From Closterium sp. NIES-65 (taxonomy: Eukaryota > Streptophyta > Zygnematophyceae > Desmidiales > Closteriaceae): a stretch of 64,000 bases of DNA. The notes beneath the pieces were generated by a model. The model searched no databases. It was given only the letters and a program-made list of their open reading frames with translations, and was not told the DNA's origin. The stretch covers positions 1 to 64,000 of the forward strand of contig CANXME010002526.1 of NCBI GenBank assembly GCA_948144175.1, given 5' to 3'. Positions 5,601 through 37,700 of the stretch are shown here, in pieces. The stretch's first letter is position 1; each line of letters starts with the position of its first letter. The position numbers were made by a program, and so were the translations under genes.

Positions 5601-8600
5601 ACTGCCCCCTCATCTCGCCCAACTCACGCTGGGAACAGCACACAGTTGGGCTGGGGACGCACCTGGTAACAAAGAGGGAAGACCAAGTAGAGGGTGGGCA
5701 GCAAGGCAAGGGAGGAAAGAGAGGGGTTAGGATGGGTAAAGGAAACGACCTCGCTGAAGTGGAAGAGCTGCCCCCTCATCTCGCCCAGCTCGGACCGGGA
5801 ACAACACACAATTGGGCTGGGGCGAACGTGGGGAGAAGAGAGAAGAGAGGTGACAGAGGGGTTTTTTGAGAATTCTCAAAAAACACGCTCGGTGACAGAG
5901 GCTCAAAAAACACGCTCGGTGACAGAGGGGGGATGGGGGGCCCACGAGACAAACAGGTGTTGGGGAAAGGAGGAAGAGGCATCCAGCACAATCTCGCTAA
6001 GGAAGAACTGCCCCCCTAATCCAGTGCAATGTGCACCGTCAAATTTTGAGGCGCCTCAAAAGTCGATCTCGCTGAGAAGGAAGAACTGCCCCCTAATCAC
6101 GATCTCACATATGTGCGAAGTGCAATGGTCAAATCTCACAAACAGACAACTCACCGTGCAGTAGGCTAGCTTGAGTGTAGACACCATGCGAGTGCGGAAG
6201 GGCAAGCAACCCACACATCTCGTGCACCTCTCCCTCCTTCGTCTGCAGCAAGTGAGAAAAGGAAAACACGTCACACATGGTTGGAACTTGGTTGGAAGGG
6301 CAGCGGTGCAACACAACTCGCTCACTGAAACCAGGATCCAAACATGAAATCCTCTATAATCCAACCAACCTCCCTCTCCCCTCTCCCACCTCGATGCTCC
6401 TGGAGACGTACATGAGCCTGCCACACTCGCCATACACCACCCACCGCCAACGGAAACTCATTCCCCACTTGGAAGGGCAACAGGGCACTACAAGTTCCCT
6501 TCCTCACGCTCACCTTGATGCTCCTTGACAAGTACATGAGCCCACCACACTCGCCGTACACAACCCCGCCAGCAGCAGCAAACGCCCCTGAGCGCATACA
6601 CAGCTTCCAAACCCAGAACAACTACCCAACCTCCCTGCTCTCACCTCGATGCTCCGTGACAGGTACATGAGCCCACCACACTCGCCGTACACCACCCCGC
6701 CAGCAGCAGCAAACGCCCTGAGCGCATACACCAGCTTCCAAACCCAGAACCAACTACCCAACCTCCTGCTCTCACCTCGATGCTCCGTGACAGGTACATG
6801 AGCCCACCACACTCGCCGTACACCACCCCCGCCAGCAGCAGCAAACGCCCTGAGCGCATACACCAGCTTGGTGTTGGCCGCCAGAGCAGCAGAATGCAGC
6901 TCAGGATACCCCCGCCAAAGTACACGGCGTCGAGACGGTGCGGCAGAGGGTCAGTGAGCGGGGAGAAAAACACAATCTCTGCTCCCGCCTCTGGTGGGGT
7001 GGGACGAAACAGCATTGAAAACAGGGGGGCAGGAGATGGCACAAGGGTGAATCGGGAATATGCAAGCCAGGCCAGAGCGGCCAGAGCAGCAGCAAACGCC
7101 CTGAGCGCATACACCAACTTGGTGTTGGCCGCCAGAGCAGCAGCATGCAGCCTCAGGATACCCCCCGCCAAAGTACACGGCGTCGAGACGGTGCGGCAGA
7201 GGGTCAGTGAGCGGGGAGAAGAACACAATCTCTGCTCCCGCCTCTGATAGGGTGGGCAACAAAAGGCAATAATGTGAACAGAGGGGAAGGAGATGGCACA
7301 ATGGTGATTGGAAATATGGACGCCAAGCAGCCAGAGAAGCCAGAGCAGCCACGGCAGCCACGTGCAGCTGGGGATACCCGCCTCTCTGGCTGCTAGAGCA
7401 GCTAGAGCGGCCAAAGTACATAGTGTCGAGGCGGTGTGGAAGGGGGTAGGTGAGCGGAGAGAAGAACACAATCTCTGCTCCGGCCTCTGGTGGGGTGGGA
7501 CGGGACAGCGTTGTGAACAGAGGGGCAGGAAATGGCACAAGGGTGATTGGAAATATGCGAGCCAAGCCAGAGCAACCAGCGCAGTAGTGTGCAGCTCAGG
7601 GTGCTGGCTCCAAAGCAAACCGAGTCGAGGTGGTGTGCAGGGGCAGGTTATCGTGGTAGTAGAAACACAGGGCCGTACTTACCTCTCAGACGCGACAAAT
7701 TATCGTGGTTGGTAGTAAAACAGAAGGCTGTTAAGGTGACTCACGTATAGCCAGTTAGTCAGGGAGTGGGTGGGGCATACTTAAACACAAGGCCCTAGTT
7801 ACCTCTCAAAAGCGGACAGGTTGTCGTGGTAGTAGAAACAAAAGGCTTCGTCTCCCGCCAACCCAATGCGAGCAAGCTTCATTCCGAGAGGCATTGGCTC
7901 ATACTCAATACAAGGTCTCACCTCTCAGCAGCGACAGGTTGTCATGGTAGTAGAAGCCAAATGCTTCGTCTCTCGCCAACCCAATGCGAGCAAGCTTCAT
8001 TCCGAGAGGCATTGGCTCATACTCAATACAAGGTCTCACCTCTCAGCAGCGACAGGTTGTCATGGTAGTAGAAGCAAAATGCTTCGTCTCTCGCCACCCC
8101 AATGCGCGCAAGCTTCATTCCAGGCGGCATCGACAACGGAGGCAGCTCATTGGCCAACGATCCACCACACTCCATCCCTCCTGCTCCTCCCATCCCACTC
8201 ATCACACTCCCTCCTCCGCCCATCACACTCTCCTCTCCGACATCCTCCCCTCCACACACACTCCCCTCCCCTCCCCCAAGCCCCATCGTAGGCGCCCCTG
8301 CCACGTCAGCTGCCAGCTGCAACAGCCTGTCCAGGTCCACGTGGGCTTCAATCAGTGTCGCCAGCCGCTCGGCGTGCTGAGCTGGCACCCCGTCCGCGTC
8401 CACCCCAGGCCGGTGCAATCCCAGGTGGCGCTCTGGCATCTCCACGTCAGCAGATTTCGGGATGCCACCTAGGACGGGAACTCTGACGTGTGCTGATTCT
8501 AGCGCCTCAGTCAGCCACGTGGCATGCGCTGCGCTGGCGACCTTATTCAGAATAATCCCCGCGAATCGCAACGACGGGTCGAAGGACGCGTAACCATGTA

Positions 8601-34739: not shown

Positions 34740-37700
34740 CTACTCTTGCTGCTGCTGTAGCTTCAGAAGCTGCTGCTCCTGTTGCCACTGCTGCAGCTGT
34801 CGTGCCTCCTTCGTAGCTTCCTCCTCCTCCACCTGAGCATACTCATGACCCCGCCAGGGCAGCTGCTGCTGTAGCGTATGAGACATTGCCCCATGCTGCT
34901 GTGTCTGCTGCTGTGGCAGCTGTGCTGCTTTTGCTGATGCTCGCTCCCCCTCAATCACCTGTGCATGCTCGTGGGCCTGCCGGTGCAGCTGCTGCACTGG
35001 AGTCTCAGGCTGCTTCTGTTGCTGCTGCTTTTGTTGCTGCTGCAGCTGAAGAGATGCTGTTGCATTTGGTGATGCCCGCCCCTCCGCAATCACCTGTGCA
35101 TGCTCATGTCCCTGCTGAGGCACTTGCTGCAGTGGGTGCTGTGTCTGCTGCTCCTGTTGCTGTTCTTGCAGCAATTGCAGCATTTGCTCATTCTCACGCT
35201 CTTCCTCTCGTGCTGCCCTTGCTGCTTCTCCCCCTGCCTTTAACACGAGCTGCTGTTTCACCTTCTCCCCCTCCCGAATCGCCTCATTCACGGCCTGCCT
35301 TGCCTGCTGTTGTGCTGACTCATACGACTGCTGTTGAGGTTGCACCTGCTGAGACGACAGCGGTGGTGGCAGTTGCTGTGGCGGCACCAGCGGTGGCTGT
35401 TGTGGTGGTCGTCGTTGCAGCAGCAGCTGTGGCAGGTTGGCGGCATGGATGGCATTCAGCCAAACGTTGAGCATCCAGTGGTCAAACAGGACAAAGTGCA
35501 CCTGCGGGCAATGGGGCATGTGACAGATAAGAGTGCAGAGGATAAGTGGGATCATGAAGAATGAGCTCCCACCAGCAGCAGCAACTCGTGAGAATATCTC
35601 ACGTGAGTGGTCTTGGGACATATTCTCAGCGTGTGAGTACGTACTTCATGTGTGTACCTCATGTGAGTACGTACTTCATGTGTGTACCTCATGTGAGTAC
35701 GTACTTCATGTGTGTACCTCATGTGAGTACGTACTTCATGTGTGTACCTCATGTGAGTACGTACCTCATGTGTGTACCTCATGTGAGTACGTACTTCATG
35801 TGTGTACCTCATGTGAGTACGTACCTCTTGCACTGACCCCCACGGTTGGCTCAACAGAACGTTCAGAGCAGCTTGGGCGCCCTTCACAGGCGGGTAACTG
35901 AACAGAGAAGCGAGGAGGAAAAAACACGGAGGGATAAATAACACAAAGATACACACCCACACCAAAAAGGGCAAATGCAGAGTATTATGCAGAAACAAAG
36001 TTATGAATTAAAGTTTGAGCCTGTTTATACGACGGATGTTAGATCAAAGAGTGTACCAGAAAATGCAGACGAAATCATGGATAGGATTGAACCTCGTGCT
36101 TGTAAAGAGGATGGATTGTACCCGAAAATGCCGCACGATATTGCGGGGATGGCGATATACTTGACACCGCACTTGTTGGCTTCTCTTAGAATGCTCCTGC
36201 GCATGAGTGAGAGCAGAAACGAAGTAGACACAAGGATGGGTGGGAGGATGGGAGGATGAGTGGGTAGGTTGATGGATTCATGAGTGAGAGGTTGCGTGAG
36301 AGGGTGAGGGAGTGAGGTGTTGAGTCCGAGCATGCACATGGTGCAATTTGCTGTGTGTGCTTCATGGACAGCACAGCACAGCACACACCTGTAGGCAGAC
36401 CCACCACATGAATATGTGCACACACCAGGGCAGAGCACAGCACAGGACCACACCGCACAGCACCGCACAGCACACACCTGTATGCCTCTTTAAGCACGGG
36501 TGCTGACACTCTTTCGGTCAAATACACGGGCCCCACCGCATGAATTACATAGCGCACTGGTAGGCTTGCTGCCCTGCAGTGTGAAATGAACAAGTGGTGG
36601 GAGCAGAGACAGAGAAGAGGAGGGAAGAGAGCTTGAGAGTAAGTTTAACCACTAAACAAGTGACTCACTACAACTCGTTCAGTCACTGTGGTCACAGCAT
36701 CCCCTGCTTGTCAGGGATCGCCATTTCTCCGCACTGGCAGGTCATAGCAGAGCTTTGGGAAAACATGCTCCTACTCCTACAGTCACCCACTCAAACGTCT
36801 CCCACGCCACACCCTCAGTCATTACTACAGTCACTCACCCTGTGGTCACAGCATCCCCTGCTTCGCACCGATCACCATTCCTCATCATGGGTAGGTCGTG
36901 GCAGAGCTTCAGGAGGGCTGGGCCTGCTGCCCGGTGGATGGCTGGTGCGAGGGGAGGGGAAATTAGGAGAGAGAGCGGAGAGAGGAAGAATGAGAGGTAA
37001 ACAGAGGGAACAAGGAAGCAGGTCGTGGCAGAGCTTCAGGAGGGCTGGGCCTGCTGCCTGGTGGATGGCTGGAGAGGGGAAGGGGGGACATGAGGAAGAG
37101 GGGAGAGCGGAGAATGAGGCGTGCAAGTTGACATGATGATAAGATGCGAGGAACGGCAGTACCGTGGCAGAGGTTCAAAGAGGCCAGCAGAGACGAGCTA
37201 TGAGAGGAACGGAAATCCGGAAAGGAAATCCCTCTTCGAACCCTTATTTTTGCAGCATGGTCGGTAAGTCGACGTTGCAGGGAGTTTTTTGAGAATTCTC
37301 AAAAACTCCTCTGAGAGGAAAGGAAATGAAATCCCTCTTCGGATCCTCATTTATGCAGCATAGTCGGTAAGTCGACATGATGACACGGCTCAGCAGACAC
37401 CCTTAATGCCTTCTACCCGCTCTCCCTCCCAATCCCCTTAACGCTCTCCCTTTTGCCGCTCACCTCCATCCAGGCCGCCCCCACCAAGCACCGACTCGTT
37501 TGCCGCATTCACCTGCGTGGGGGCACGCAGGAGGAAGGGCGGGTGACACAGGAGGAAGGGCAGGTTTGGCTGGTAGGAAATGAGTTGTACCAGCTCACGT
37601 TATACCCTCTTGCATTTACAACTCGCTCTCGCCTCGCTTGCACTCACCAGAGCATACCTAAGTGCCCCGGATAACCCCATGGTGCCAGCACATACACTCC

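Follow-up and report, generated by a model that had tools for sequence, protein, structure and literature searches.

INTRODUCTION

Bacterial REPs and REPINs are described as palindromic repeats of 20-40 bp present in high copy (PMC3733652, PMC3116915). Organelles of green algae and fungi (Volvox, Fusarium) carry short palindromic repeats that are reported as thought to be selfish or mobile, with the mechanism of spread left open (PMC2670323, PMC7218506), and the Volvox authors report that nuclear copies appear inert (PMC2670323); the strings 'target site' and 'duplicat' are absent from the main text of both papers (PMC2670323, PMC7218506). Introners resembling DNA transposons are reported with duplications of 3-9 bp (PMC9860276), and those of Amoebophrya as repeated genic inserts, hairpin-capable, with inverted repeats of 8-20 nt and direct repeats of 3-5 nt, at exon/intron boundaries (PMC7789003). 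Break repair also leaves short traces, described as small tandem duplications (<100 bp) from fill-in of 3′ overhangs and end joining (PMC8355091) and as foldback inversions at yeast breaks, with inverted insertions mostly of 5-34 bp (PMC11724301).

A preliminary description of a 64,000-nt stretch of Closterium DNA (the window) placed palindromes at the junctions of direct duplications. We confirm that this observation is real, and far larger than the window. The Closterium nuclear genome holds many copies of an ultra-short palindromic insertion family (~18-50 bp), and most insertions examined sit at the junction of two direct target copies. We know of no described mobile element that behaves in this way, combining a tiny palindrome with a duplicated target. 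The listed titles and abstract openings of the open-access literature (subscription papers and preprints being outside this scope) yielded no palindromic insert with target duplication and, for Closterium and palindromes, no title on nuclear palindromes among those listed.

RESULTS

Elements of the window

The core of the family consists of TTTTGAG, then a tetramer that is its own complement (TCGA, GCGC, ACGT or AATT), then CTCAAAA; elements are typed here by the tetramer. Direct reading and a script gave four perfect even palindromes in the window, 24 bp at 5861-5884, 18 bp at 6044-6061, 22 bp at 13389-13410 and 20 bp at 37286-37305. The first three are as first described; the fourth had been given as 37282-37308, a span that does hold a palindrome, although its perfect part is the shorter one, an extra T lying in the left arm. 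The features are:

5861..5884, no strand, AATT-type element GTTTTTTGAGAATTCTCAAAAAAC with 11-bp copies GGTGACAGAGG on each side
5875-5901 and 5902-5928, secondary 27-bp tandem duplication at the 5861 element, overlapped by the palindrome
6044..6061, no strand, GCGC-type element TTTTGAGGCGCCTCAAAA with flanking copies at 5991-6021 and 6066-6098
13328..13385, + strand, left direct copy, target of the 13389 element, 58 bp
13389..13410, no strand, GCGC-type element ATTTTTGAGGCGCCTCAAAAAT
13409..13466, + strand, right direct copy, target of the 13389 element, 58 bp, 95% identical
14313..14356, + strand, left direct copy beside the 14357 element, 44 bp, 100% identical to 14389-14432
14357..14388, no strand, decayed TCGA-type element, 28 of 32 bases as in AGGTGACTTTTGAGTCGACTCAAAAGTCACCT
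14389..14432, + strand, right direct copy beside the 14357 element, 44 bp
37198..37273, + strand, left direct copy, target of the 37286 element
37286..37305, no strand, AATT-type element TTTTTGAGAATTCTCAAAAA with imperfect extension 37282-37308
37309..37376, + strand, right direct copy, target of the 37286 element

The copies announced around the 13389 and 37286 palindromes are there, the latter pair ~70 bp long with an 8-bp indel between them. Those around 6044 are present too (31-33 bp) but weaker, and within an older repeat array. At 5861 the overlap with a 27-bp tandem duplication holds, and the actual flanking copies, of 11 bp, score 11, under the threshold of the abutting-copy test used below. 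The fifth, imperfect case at 14357-14388 does lie between identical 44-bp repeats, which keep 96% identity when extended to 56 bp; AGGTGACTTTTGAGTCGACTCAAAAGTCACCT is intact at C9:127257. The 13389 element is apparently intronic, in what we take, from our own gene label and intron call, to be a thioredoxin-like gene.

Chance and composition were rejected as a source by Markov runs, motif counts and the reversed control given below. Eight even palindromes with arms of at least 9 are found in the window, against 0.1 per run at arm 9, and none longer, in 30 first-order Markov sequences; TTTTGAG occurs 8 times (1.6 expected), GAGGCGCCTC 4 times (0.17 expected) and GAGAATTCTC twice (0.05 expected). 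Tandem duplications are generally common in the window, 10% of random positions scoring at least 48, so that the window alone could not decide; the genome-wide data do. The palindromes of the 17-22 kb and 33 kb regions (TAAGACAT, TAAGCGC motifs), tried as a second family, are part of longer inverted repeats there, which are probably DNA transposon ends.

Genome-wide occurrence

The proposed genome-wide motif search gave 30,327 matches to TTTTGAGNNNNCTCAAAA in the 874-Mb assembly against 4 for the reversed control, a count qualified by the partial redundancy of the assembly (up to ~threefold where tested). The size of the assembly and sites on contigs up to 4.8 Mb place the family in the nucleus, not in mitochondrion or plastid; the window also has what we take, from our own labels, to be interrupted genes and retroelement-like ORFs. 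A viral source was rejected, TTTTGAGTCGACTCAAAA, which represents one centre type only, having no exact match in viral contigs.

The centre is one of the four tetramers in 45 of 48 perfect copies read, and the spacer is exactly 4 in 48 of 49; all 59 GAG-N4-CTC palindromes with T4/A4 flanks (array members counted) have one of the four. Inserts are mostly 18-36 bp in the cleaner cases, the arms extending TCGA and AATT types to ~32 bp in total and the ACGT type to ~50 bp. The arms are ragged, perfect mirroring reaching anywhere from 0 to 16 bp beyond the core, and cores decay (110 sites when up to 3 mismatches are allowed). Subfamilies have common arms (GAAGAAGTG-core, 679 matches, control 0). 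GAAGAAGTGTTTTGAG matches 1,101 times and runs on into a perfect ACGT core in at most 679 of these; a satellite on C71 is among the rest.

The outer arms mirror each other, with an extension of 80 against 36.8 +/- 7.1 when partners were shuffled inside centre class (0 of 5000 shuffles). Among the ACGT elements listed (of 173), one arm position is concordant in 47 of 50, as A-T in 33 and G-C in 14, and one long arm pair occurs a single time in the assembly. A hand estimate of palindromy continuing into the target copies, allowing for ambiguous shared bases, was no better than expected and gives no support to foldback into the target.

Junctions of direct copies

At 48 sites, plain local-alignment scores did not stand out: none passed the 99% point of random positions and 48% passed the 90% point, since tandem repeats abound in the genome. 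The test had to demand direct copies that touch the palindrome. The statistical sample combined the window with three contigs from the top of the search listing, which are above average in density. In its 264 kb, 24 of 30 independent perfect sites lie between abutting direct copies, compared with 152 of 1500 random positions (Fisher p 2e-18), 32 of 202 nearby positions (p 4e-12) and none of 23 other palindromes (p 8e-10). The expected enrichment between direct repeats is thus present. By the same test, abutting copies are missing at 6 of the 30 perfect sites and at 14 of the 25 whose core has 1-2 mismatches. Four of six loci on other contigs pass, a figure that stands without a control set for loci picked from one subfamily: three have perfect copies (17, 50 and 54 bp) and one has 42-bp copies with 2 mismatches, while C332 misses the test with 12-bp copies and C309 has none.

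The duplication had been put at about 45-80 bp, and its range proves wider. With flanks cut at 100 bp, the cleaner cases (26 of 35 passing clusters, those whose copies are at least 0.88 identical) span 16-73 bp; copies of 11-12 bp may also occur. Mean copy identity is 0.93, 0.94 and 0.83 at 0, 1 and 2 core mismatches, with no steady fall as the core decays. The same 23-bp insert, ACTTTTGAGTCGACTCAAAAGTC, is flanked by perfect copies of 60 bp at C6:109299 and of 23 bp at C6:123337. At one site read, the duplication appears to take in a splice region or exon edge.

Copy-palindrome units can later expand into tandem arrays; units of 37, 42, 49, 53, 79 and 89 bp were seen, and the unit number of one array differs between two near-identical contigs. 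The suggestion that the palindromes are an engine of the exon duplications fails for most of them: an intact core lies in the gap of just 18 of 125 spaced duplications (264 kb), and most listed window duplications have no palindrome between the copies. Partial half-sites were seen in 14 gaps.

Sites lacking the palindrome

Single-copy empty sites, which an insertion predicts, were found once at the DNA level and once at the protein level. At C9:123758 a paralogous site has one CGGCCCAGCCCCAAGC and no palindrome, and from C9:124113 onward two CGGCCCAGCCCCAAGC surround a 28-bp palindromic insert. This was the only DNA-level empty site found (homology 69 bp at 89.9%), and it is a local paralog, not an allele, where the insert may instead have been lost. 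The protein-level case is a reading frame of the window:

37830..40232, - strand, open reading frame of 800 aa in which a 36-aa segment occurs three times, its copies parted by two GAGGCGCCTC palindromes (EAPH peptides)
39718..39735, no strand, variant GCGC-type palindrome inside the frame, between 108-bp repeat units, 2 mismatches in 14 fixed bases
39826..39843, no strand, second variant palindrome TGGTGAGGCGCCTCACCA in the same 108-bp array, 4 mismatches in 14 fixed bases (by eye)

Homologs in Closterium strains Yama58-4 and Naga37s-1 have a single 36-aa copy and no EAPH.

No near-allelic empty site was found on C1759, which has a near-identical copy of C9:120001-128000; an apparent 476-bp insert in that comparison was set aside, its position being a TC microsatellite. 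The 13389 site has two 100% copies and otherwise partial matches, none spanning the site, and C6:109299 has two near-identical copies across the site. Other hits of the predicted-empty-site search are repeat arrays or ~70% alignments and decide nothing.

DISCUSSION

The data are best explained by palindromes that insert recurrently and duplicate their target over a variable length. Of the two origins first offered, that of a tiny insertion which makes a long target duplication has support from the recurrence in the genome, the 24 of 30 sites, the four of six loci on other contigs and the two empty sites.

As to mechanism, a widely staggered break, with nicks on opposite strands some tens of nucleotides apart, would be filled in at both ends, giving the target duplication, and the ends would be joined via a short hairpin oligonucleotide, for which a small RNA or single-stranded DNA is the candidate source. 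A strand ending TTTTGAG-NNNN-CTCAAAA could fold to a 7-bp stem, and its 3′ end would then copy the upstream arm over a variable distance, the palindrome being remade at each event. Foldback copying with staggered fill-in would explain the mirrored arm variants, the unequal arm lengths and the variable duplication length; the mirrored arms could alternatively reflect palindromic subfamilies copied as double-stranded DNA. We give the whole explanation, insertion family and captured foldback-copied hairpin together, an even chance of being right. More tentatively, we propose a eukaryotic mobile system of the nucleus in which a half-element oligonucleotide is the unit (~18-29 nt; either RNA or single-stranded DNA, with TTTTGAG and the self-complementary tetramer at its end). 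The unit would be self-copied to a hairpin or dimer palindrome on insertion and captured in breaks staggered by tens of nucleotides; the system would have duplicated host sequence at each insertion and left at least ten thousand palindromes, together with new tandem arrays, in a single algal genome.

A DNA transposon of the MITE-like or foldback kind, of which only the two terminal repeats are left and which a putative transposase moves in trans, cutting the target strands tens of bases apart, would account for the high dispersed copy number, the target duplication, the empty site, the near-perfect inverted arms and subfamilies with common arms such as GAAGAAGTG-core (679 against 0). DNA transposases make target duplications that are short and of fixed length, whereas here the length varies from 16 to 73 bp, the arms are ragged (0 to 16 bp mirrored beyond the core) and at most 679 of the 1,101 GAAGAAGTGTTTTGAG matches reach the perfect ACGT core; we regard this origin as rather unlikely. 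Retroposition seems to us slightly less likely still. A non-LTR-type enzyme would reverse-transcribe a short hairpin RNA at a nick, a distant second-strand nick making the duplication and snap-back or twin priming the palindrome. Target-primed reverse transcription typically yields duplications of variable length and truncated ends, and the 16-73-bp range, T/A-run arms and perfect hairpin agree with it; yet the inserts are largely symmetrical, the sites read show neither a poly-A tail nor a longer RNA template, and no Rfam family reaches its threshold in the window.

That existing TTTTGAG palindromes came first, extruding cruciforms or stalling forks so that repair duplicated the neighbouring DNA, would fit the co-occurrence of tandem duplications and hairpins. 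This reading, which includes the template switch from a pre-existing palindrome of the preliminary description, is contradicted by the absence of a palindrome at C9:123758 and in the Yama58-4 and Naga37s-1 homologs; abutting duplications are found at none of the 23 other perfect palindromes, and slippage past a palindrome would not be expected to yield a single palindrome between two copies. We consider a palindrome-first origin highly improbable. An assembly or library artefact (adapter, primer dimer, chimeric join) or chance can be dismissed with near certainty: self-complementary centres do resemble primer dimers and the assembly is redundant, but cores and copies decay (110 sites; identities 0.93, 0.94, 0.83), array unit number differs between near-identical contigs, a palindrome pair lies in an ORF, and 30,327 matches face 4 in the control.

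If recurrent insertion with target duplication is the true reading, these are to our knowledge among the smallest recurrent insertion elements of any nuclear genome. Most insertions would inherently duplicate tens of bases of host DNA; the element would seed tandem arrays and could lengthen a reading frame, as in the 36-aa repeats at 39.7 kb. The genome would be a natural high-copy record of staggered-break fill-in and joining, and the spread of short palindromic repeats, an open question, would become testable in a culturable alga.

Relation to described systems

MITEs and foldback elements with terminal inverted repeats are likewise short and non-coding, with inverted arms, high copy number, target duplications and empty sites. 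The Closterium elements have terminal inverted repeats (arms mirrored to 16 bp beyond the core) but no fixed short target duplication, and are instead ~18-50 bp whole, zero-loop, with four allowed centres and ragged arms. With non-LTR retroposons they share the variable target duplication. Introners resemble them as repeated, hairpin-capable inserts with inverted repeats, but have duplications of 3-9 bp against the 16-73 bp seen here, where the core is without a splice signal. Yeast GC clusters are short organelle palindromic repeats comparable to those of Volvox and Fusarium; all are short hairpin repeats in high copy that reside in organelles, whereas the Closterium elements are nuclear and tied to long target duplications. 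REPs and REPINs share the 20-40-bp palindrome, the high copy number and the arrays with the Closterium elements, but they are bacterial, their spread is ascribed to REP-associated tyrosine transposases (RAYT), and we know of no long target duplications at them. Small fill-in duplications offer the same direct duplication under ~100 bp at one junction; they and foldback inversions use local sequence, whereas in Closterium one recurrent family, in thousands of copies, occupies the junctions.

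Palindromes in the window and the assembly

The family core is TTTTGAG-tetramer-CTCAAAA, with the self-complementary tetramer defining the centre type. The preliminary description had reported perfect palindromes of this kind in the window, flanked by direct copies of a segment; both palindromes and copies are present, with some corrections to the details of the copies:

5861-5884, perfect palindrome
6044-6061, perfect palindrome
13389-13410, perfect palindrome
37286-37305, perfect palindrome
14357-14388, decayed palindrome, sharing 28 of its 32 bases with the 32-bp TCGA form

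The window contains eight even palindromes with an arm of at least 9, one being an AT repeat. Thirty first-order Markov sequences of window composition gave 0.1 arm-9 even palindromes per run, and none longer.

Across the assembly (G000; 874,075,685 bases in 2400 contigs, the window being C2228:1-64000) TTTTGAGNNNNCTCAAAA occurs at 30,327 places and its reversed control at 4; the former count is inflated by assembly redundancy, up to about threefold where seen, which leaves the excess over the control unaffected. Such redundancy was seen for the 801-bp stretch 12950-13750 of the window, which has two further 100% copies (identical on contigs C2228, C1969 and C196), for C6:108700-109800, which has two near-identical counterparts, and for the 153-kb contig C9, which is near-identical to a stretch of a 3.2-Mb contig; C9 and C1759 are 92-100% identical by piece.

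Closer counts came from a 264-kb sample (C6:1-150000, C10:350001-380000, C9:110001-130000 and the window). The 14 fixed bases were matched with at most 3 mismatches at 110 places, 48 of them perfect, where arithmetic with equal base use predicts about 10 at this threshold and 1 at two mismatches or fewer. Centres of the perfect copies were TCGA (18), GCGC (12), ACGT (11), AATT (4), and TTGA, AATC and ACAT (1 each). With array members included, and not all independent, the family supplies 48 of 61 perfect even palindromes whose arms reach 8 or more, and of 49 cases in which TTTTGAG and CTCAAAA lie 0 to 20 apart, 48 have a spacer of 4. When GAG-N4-CTC with T4/A4 flanks was allowed up to two mismatches, again including array members, the self-complementary tetramers were TCGA (23), ACGT (15), GCGC (15) and AATT (6); the other 12 of the 16 possible were absent from this context in the 264 kb. 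Density is 30 perfect sites per 150 kb of C6, against one per 29 kb genome-wide.

Copies adjoining the palindrome

The 90 places with at most two mismatches were clustered at 150 bp or less into 55 clusters, the first member of each being used unselected; 20 places with three mismatches were excluded. Each was scored by the best left/right alignment of its 100-bp flanks with both copies within 20 bp of the core, a score of 14 or more being a pass. The pass rate was 24/30 for clusters starting with a perfect core and 11/25 for those starting with one or two core mismatches, against 152/1500 random positions, 32/202 positions 300-400 bp from sites and 0/23 other perfect palindromes of arm at least 7. 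For the perfect sites Fisher p is 2e-18 versus random, 4e-12 versus nearby positions and 8e-10 versus other palindromes. Three of the four perfect sites in the window pass (that at 5864 scores 11), as do 21 of 26 outside it. The test contigs headed the search listing and are denser in elements than the genome average; six ACGT-type loci with the GAAGAAGTG arm, on other contigs, were added as a check, and four pass.

Copies at six ACGT-type loci on other contigs
C27: 17-bp perfect copies; passes
C105: 50-bp perfect copies; passes
C213: 42-bp copies with 2 mismatches; passes
C170: 54-bp perfect copies, the right one 27 bp from the core; passes
C332: exact 12-bp copies, with 28 bp between the left copy and the core; misses
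C309: locus inside a GATATCAGGG repeat; no copies

Structure of the insert

Copy identity is at least 0.88 in 26 of the 35 passing clusters, where duplications span 16-73 bp (flanks cut at 100 bp); the inserts are 18-53 bp long, and 23 fall within 18-36 bp. The same 23-base insert, ACTTTTGAGTCGACTCAAAAGTC, lies between 60-bp perfect copies at C6:109299 and between 23-bp perfect copies at C6:123337. At the former (C6:109237-109379) the 60-bp duplication seems to include a 3′ splice region and exon start (MYHTPPTNFD), and to judge from the sequence the second copy could leave the gene spliceable.

Complementarity extends about 7 bp beyond the core (0.87, 0.67, 0.53, 0.50, 0.47, 0.43 and 0.43, then background; 30 sites). 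The long TCGA form is (A)GGTGACTTTTGAGTCGACTCAAAAGTCACC(T), intact at C9:127257. Elements of the ACGT type are longer. GAAGAAGTG-core was matched 372 times forward and 307 times in reverse, against 0 for the control; C213 carries a 50-bp palindrome, CGTGTTTGAAGAAGTG-core-CACTTCTTCAAACACG, and C332 a version of it in which a T-to-A change is mirrored. Arms of the family include GGTGACTTTTGAG, GAGTGACTTTTGAG and CACGTGTTTGAAGAAGTGTTTTGAG.

Empty sites

Predicted pre-insertion sequences (left flank, one copy, right flank) of 64 members scoring at least 14 were searched for in the 264 kb. One clear case emerged: the filled site from C9:124113 onward has two CGGCCCAGCCCCAAGC around GACTTTTGAGTCGACTCAAAAGTCACCC, while its paralog at C9:123758, 89.9% identical to it over 69 bp, has one CGGCCCAGCCCCAAGC and no palindrome. 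The remaining spanning matches, for four sites, fell in arrays or aligned at about 70%, and are uncounted. A near-allelic comparison of 8 kb between C9 and C1759 gave no empty site at the insertions, which counts against reading the copies as target duplications; the sole array difference at alignment breaks was two 79-bp units.

A protein gives a further comparison. ORF 37830-40232 (minus) contains a YPSQETSASGEDSGGGG-like segment three times over, the copies parted by the peptides GEAPHQKT and VEAPHNKT, which are encoded by palindromes at 39718 and 39826 (variant members, the first with 2 mismatches by scan, the second with 4 by eye). At the protein level, homologs in strains Yama58-4 (P0121) and Naga37s-1 (P0122) have one YPSQETSASGEDSGGGG-like segment and no EAPH; a third match, P0123, is missing most of this repeat part.

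Mechanism

A recurrent palindromic sequence sits exactly at duplication junctions, the empty site is single-copy, and the arms are mirrored. Contiguous extension beyond the core sums to 80, against 36.8 ± 7.1 with partners shuffled inside centre class, and 0 of 5000 shuffles reach 80. Genome-wide, AAGNAGTG-core-CACTNCTT occurs at 173 places; among the 50 listed (some neighbours, not all independent) 33 are A..T, 14 G..C and 3 discordant. Palindromic subfamilies would explain part of this mirroring. The arm pair GTTGGG-core-CCCAAC (C9:117372) has a single occurrence in the assembly, and this long palindromic arm therefore does not represent a family. Together these observations favour a palindrome regenerated by self-templated copying.

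Insertion would start at a staggered break; the break ends would be filled in, a foldback step would yield the palindrome, and the ends would be joined last. Small tandem duplications are described as arising when 3′ overhangs are filled in and the ends joined (PMC8355091), and yeast breaks as capturing foldback inversions, mostly of 5-34 bp (PMC11724301). Neither process, as described there, accounts for one recurrent sequence, which needs a source molecule or a specific enzyme; none with this sequence specificity was found in this analysis. A DNA transposase and target-primed reverse transcription are alternative, less likely agents of insertion.

Duplications and arrays

The preliminary description had named a tiny insertion or a palindrome-triggered template switch as a plausible engine of the exon duplications. 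In the 264 kb, 125 duplications have their copies separated by gaps of 8-60 bp. The gap contains the core TTTGAG-N4-CTCAAA in 18 of them and no more than a half-core in a further 14; the window alone gave 14 (two with core, one with half-core), and most entries of a broader window list have no palindrome between the copies. The element therefore makes some duplications and is not their general cause. Dense exon-scale tandem duplications, mostly palindrome-free, occupy 4000-10000, 13300-14800 and 36600-40000 (spacings mostly 70-540 bp, identity about 66-97%).

The element does seed tandem arrays. Units in the sample are 37, 53, 42 and 79 bp; elsewhere, C295:31181-32236 is a satellite of 22 49-bp units containing the element or its arm, and C71:74266-81846 one with an 89-bp unit carrying arm and half-core in at least dozens of copies. 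At C6:136185-136448 and C6:137344-137484 lie arrays of decayed elements, TTTTGAGGCGCCTAAAAAATCACC and GACTTTTGAGGCACTTTTGC, whose periods are about 24 and 20 bp.

Other features of the window

8023-8928 (minus), cobyrinate a,c-diamide synthase-like ORF; best matches Closterium sp. Yama58-4 (92% over 85% of query) and NIES-68 (81% over 77%), with chytrid proteins also among the top matches; a Closterium near to these two strains is very probably the source of the window
17668-21211, terminal inverted repeats of 24 bp, separated by 3.5 kb and enclosing inner TAAGACATATA palindromes and the next ORF
17911-18897 (minus), ORF that we take to resemble a DDE/pogo transposase
21443-21533 and 33004-33708, TATAAGCGC...GCGCTTATA palindromes in longer, nested inverted repeats that probably represent small DNA transposons of the non-autonomous kind

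Rfam gave no family at gathering score in 1-64000.

Comparison with known systems

MITEs, introners, organelle palindromic repeats and fill-in duplications each have a tested feature that the element lacks. Its separation from REPs and retroposons, each defined in part by a partner, is tentative. An enzyme may still put the element beside a known class. A literature search at the level of titles and abstract starts, with most subscription papers and all preprints outside its scope, returned no such element. Given this and the tested features that it lacks, the element appears to be of a new kind.
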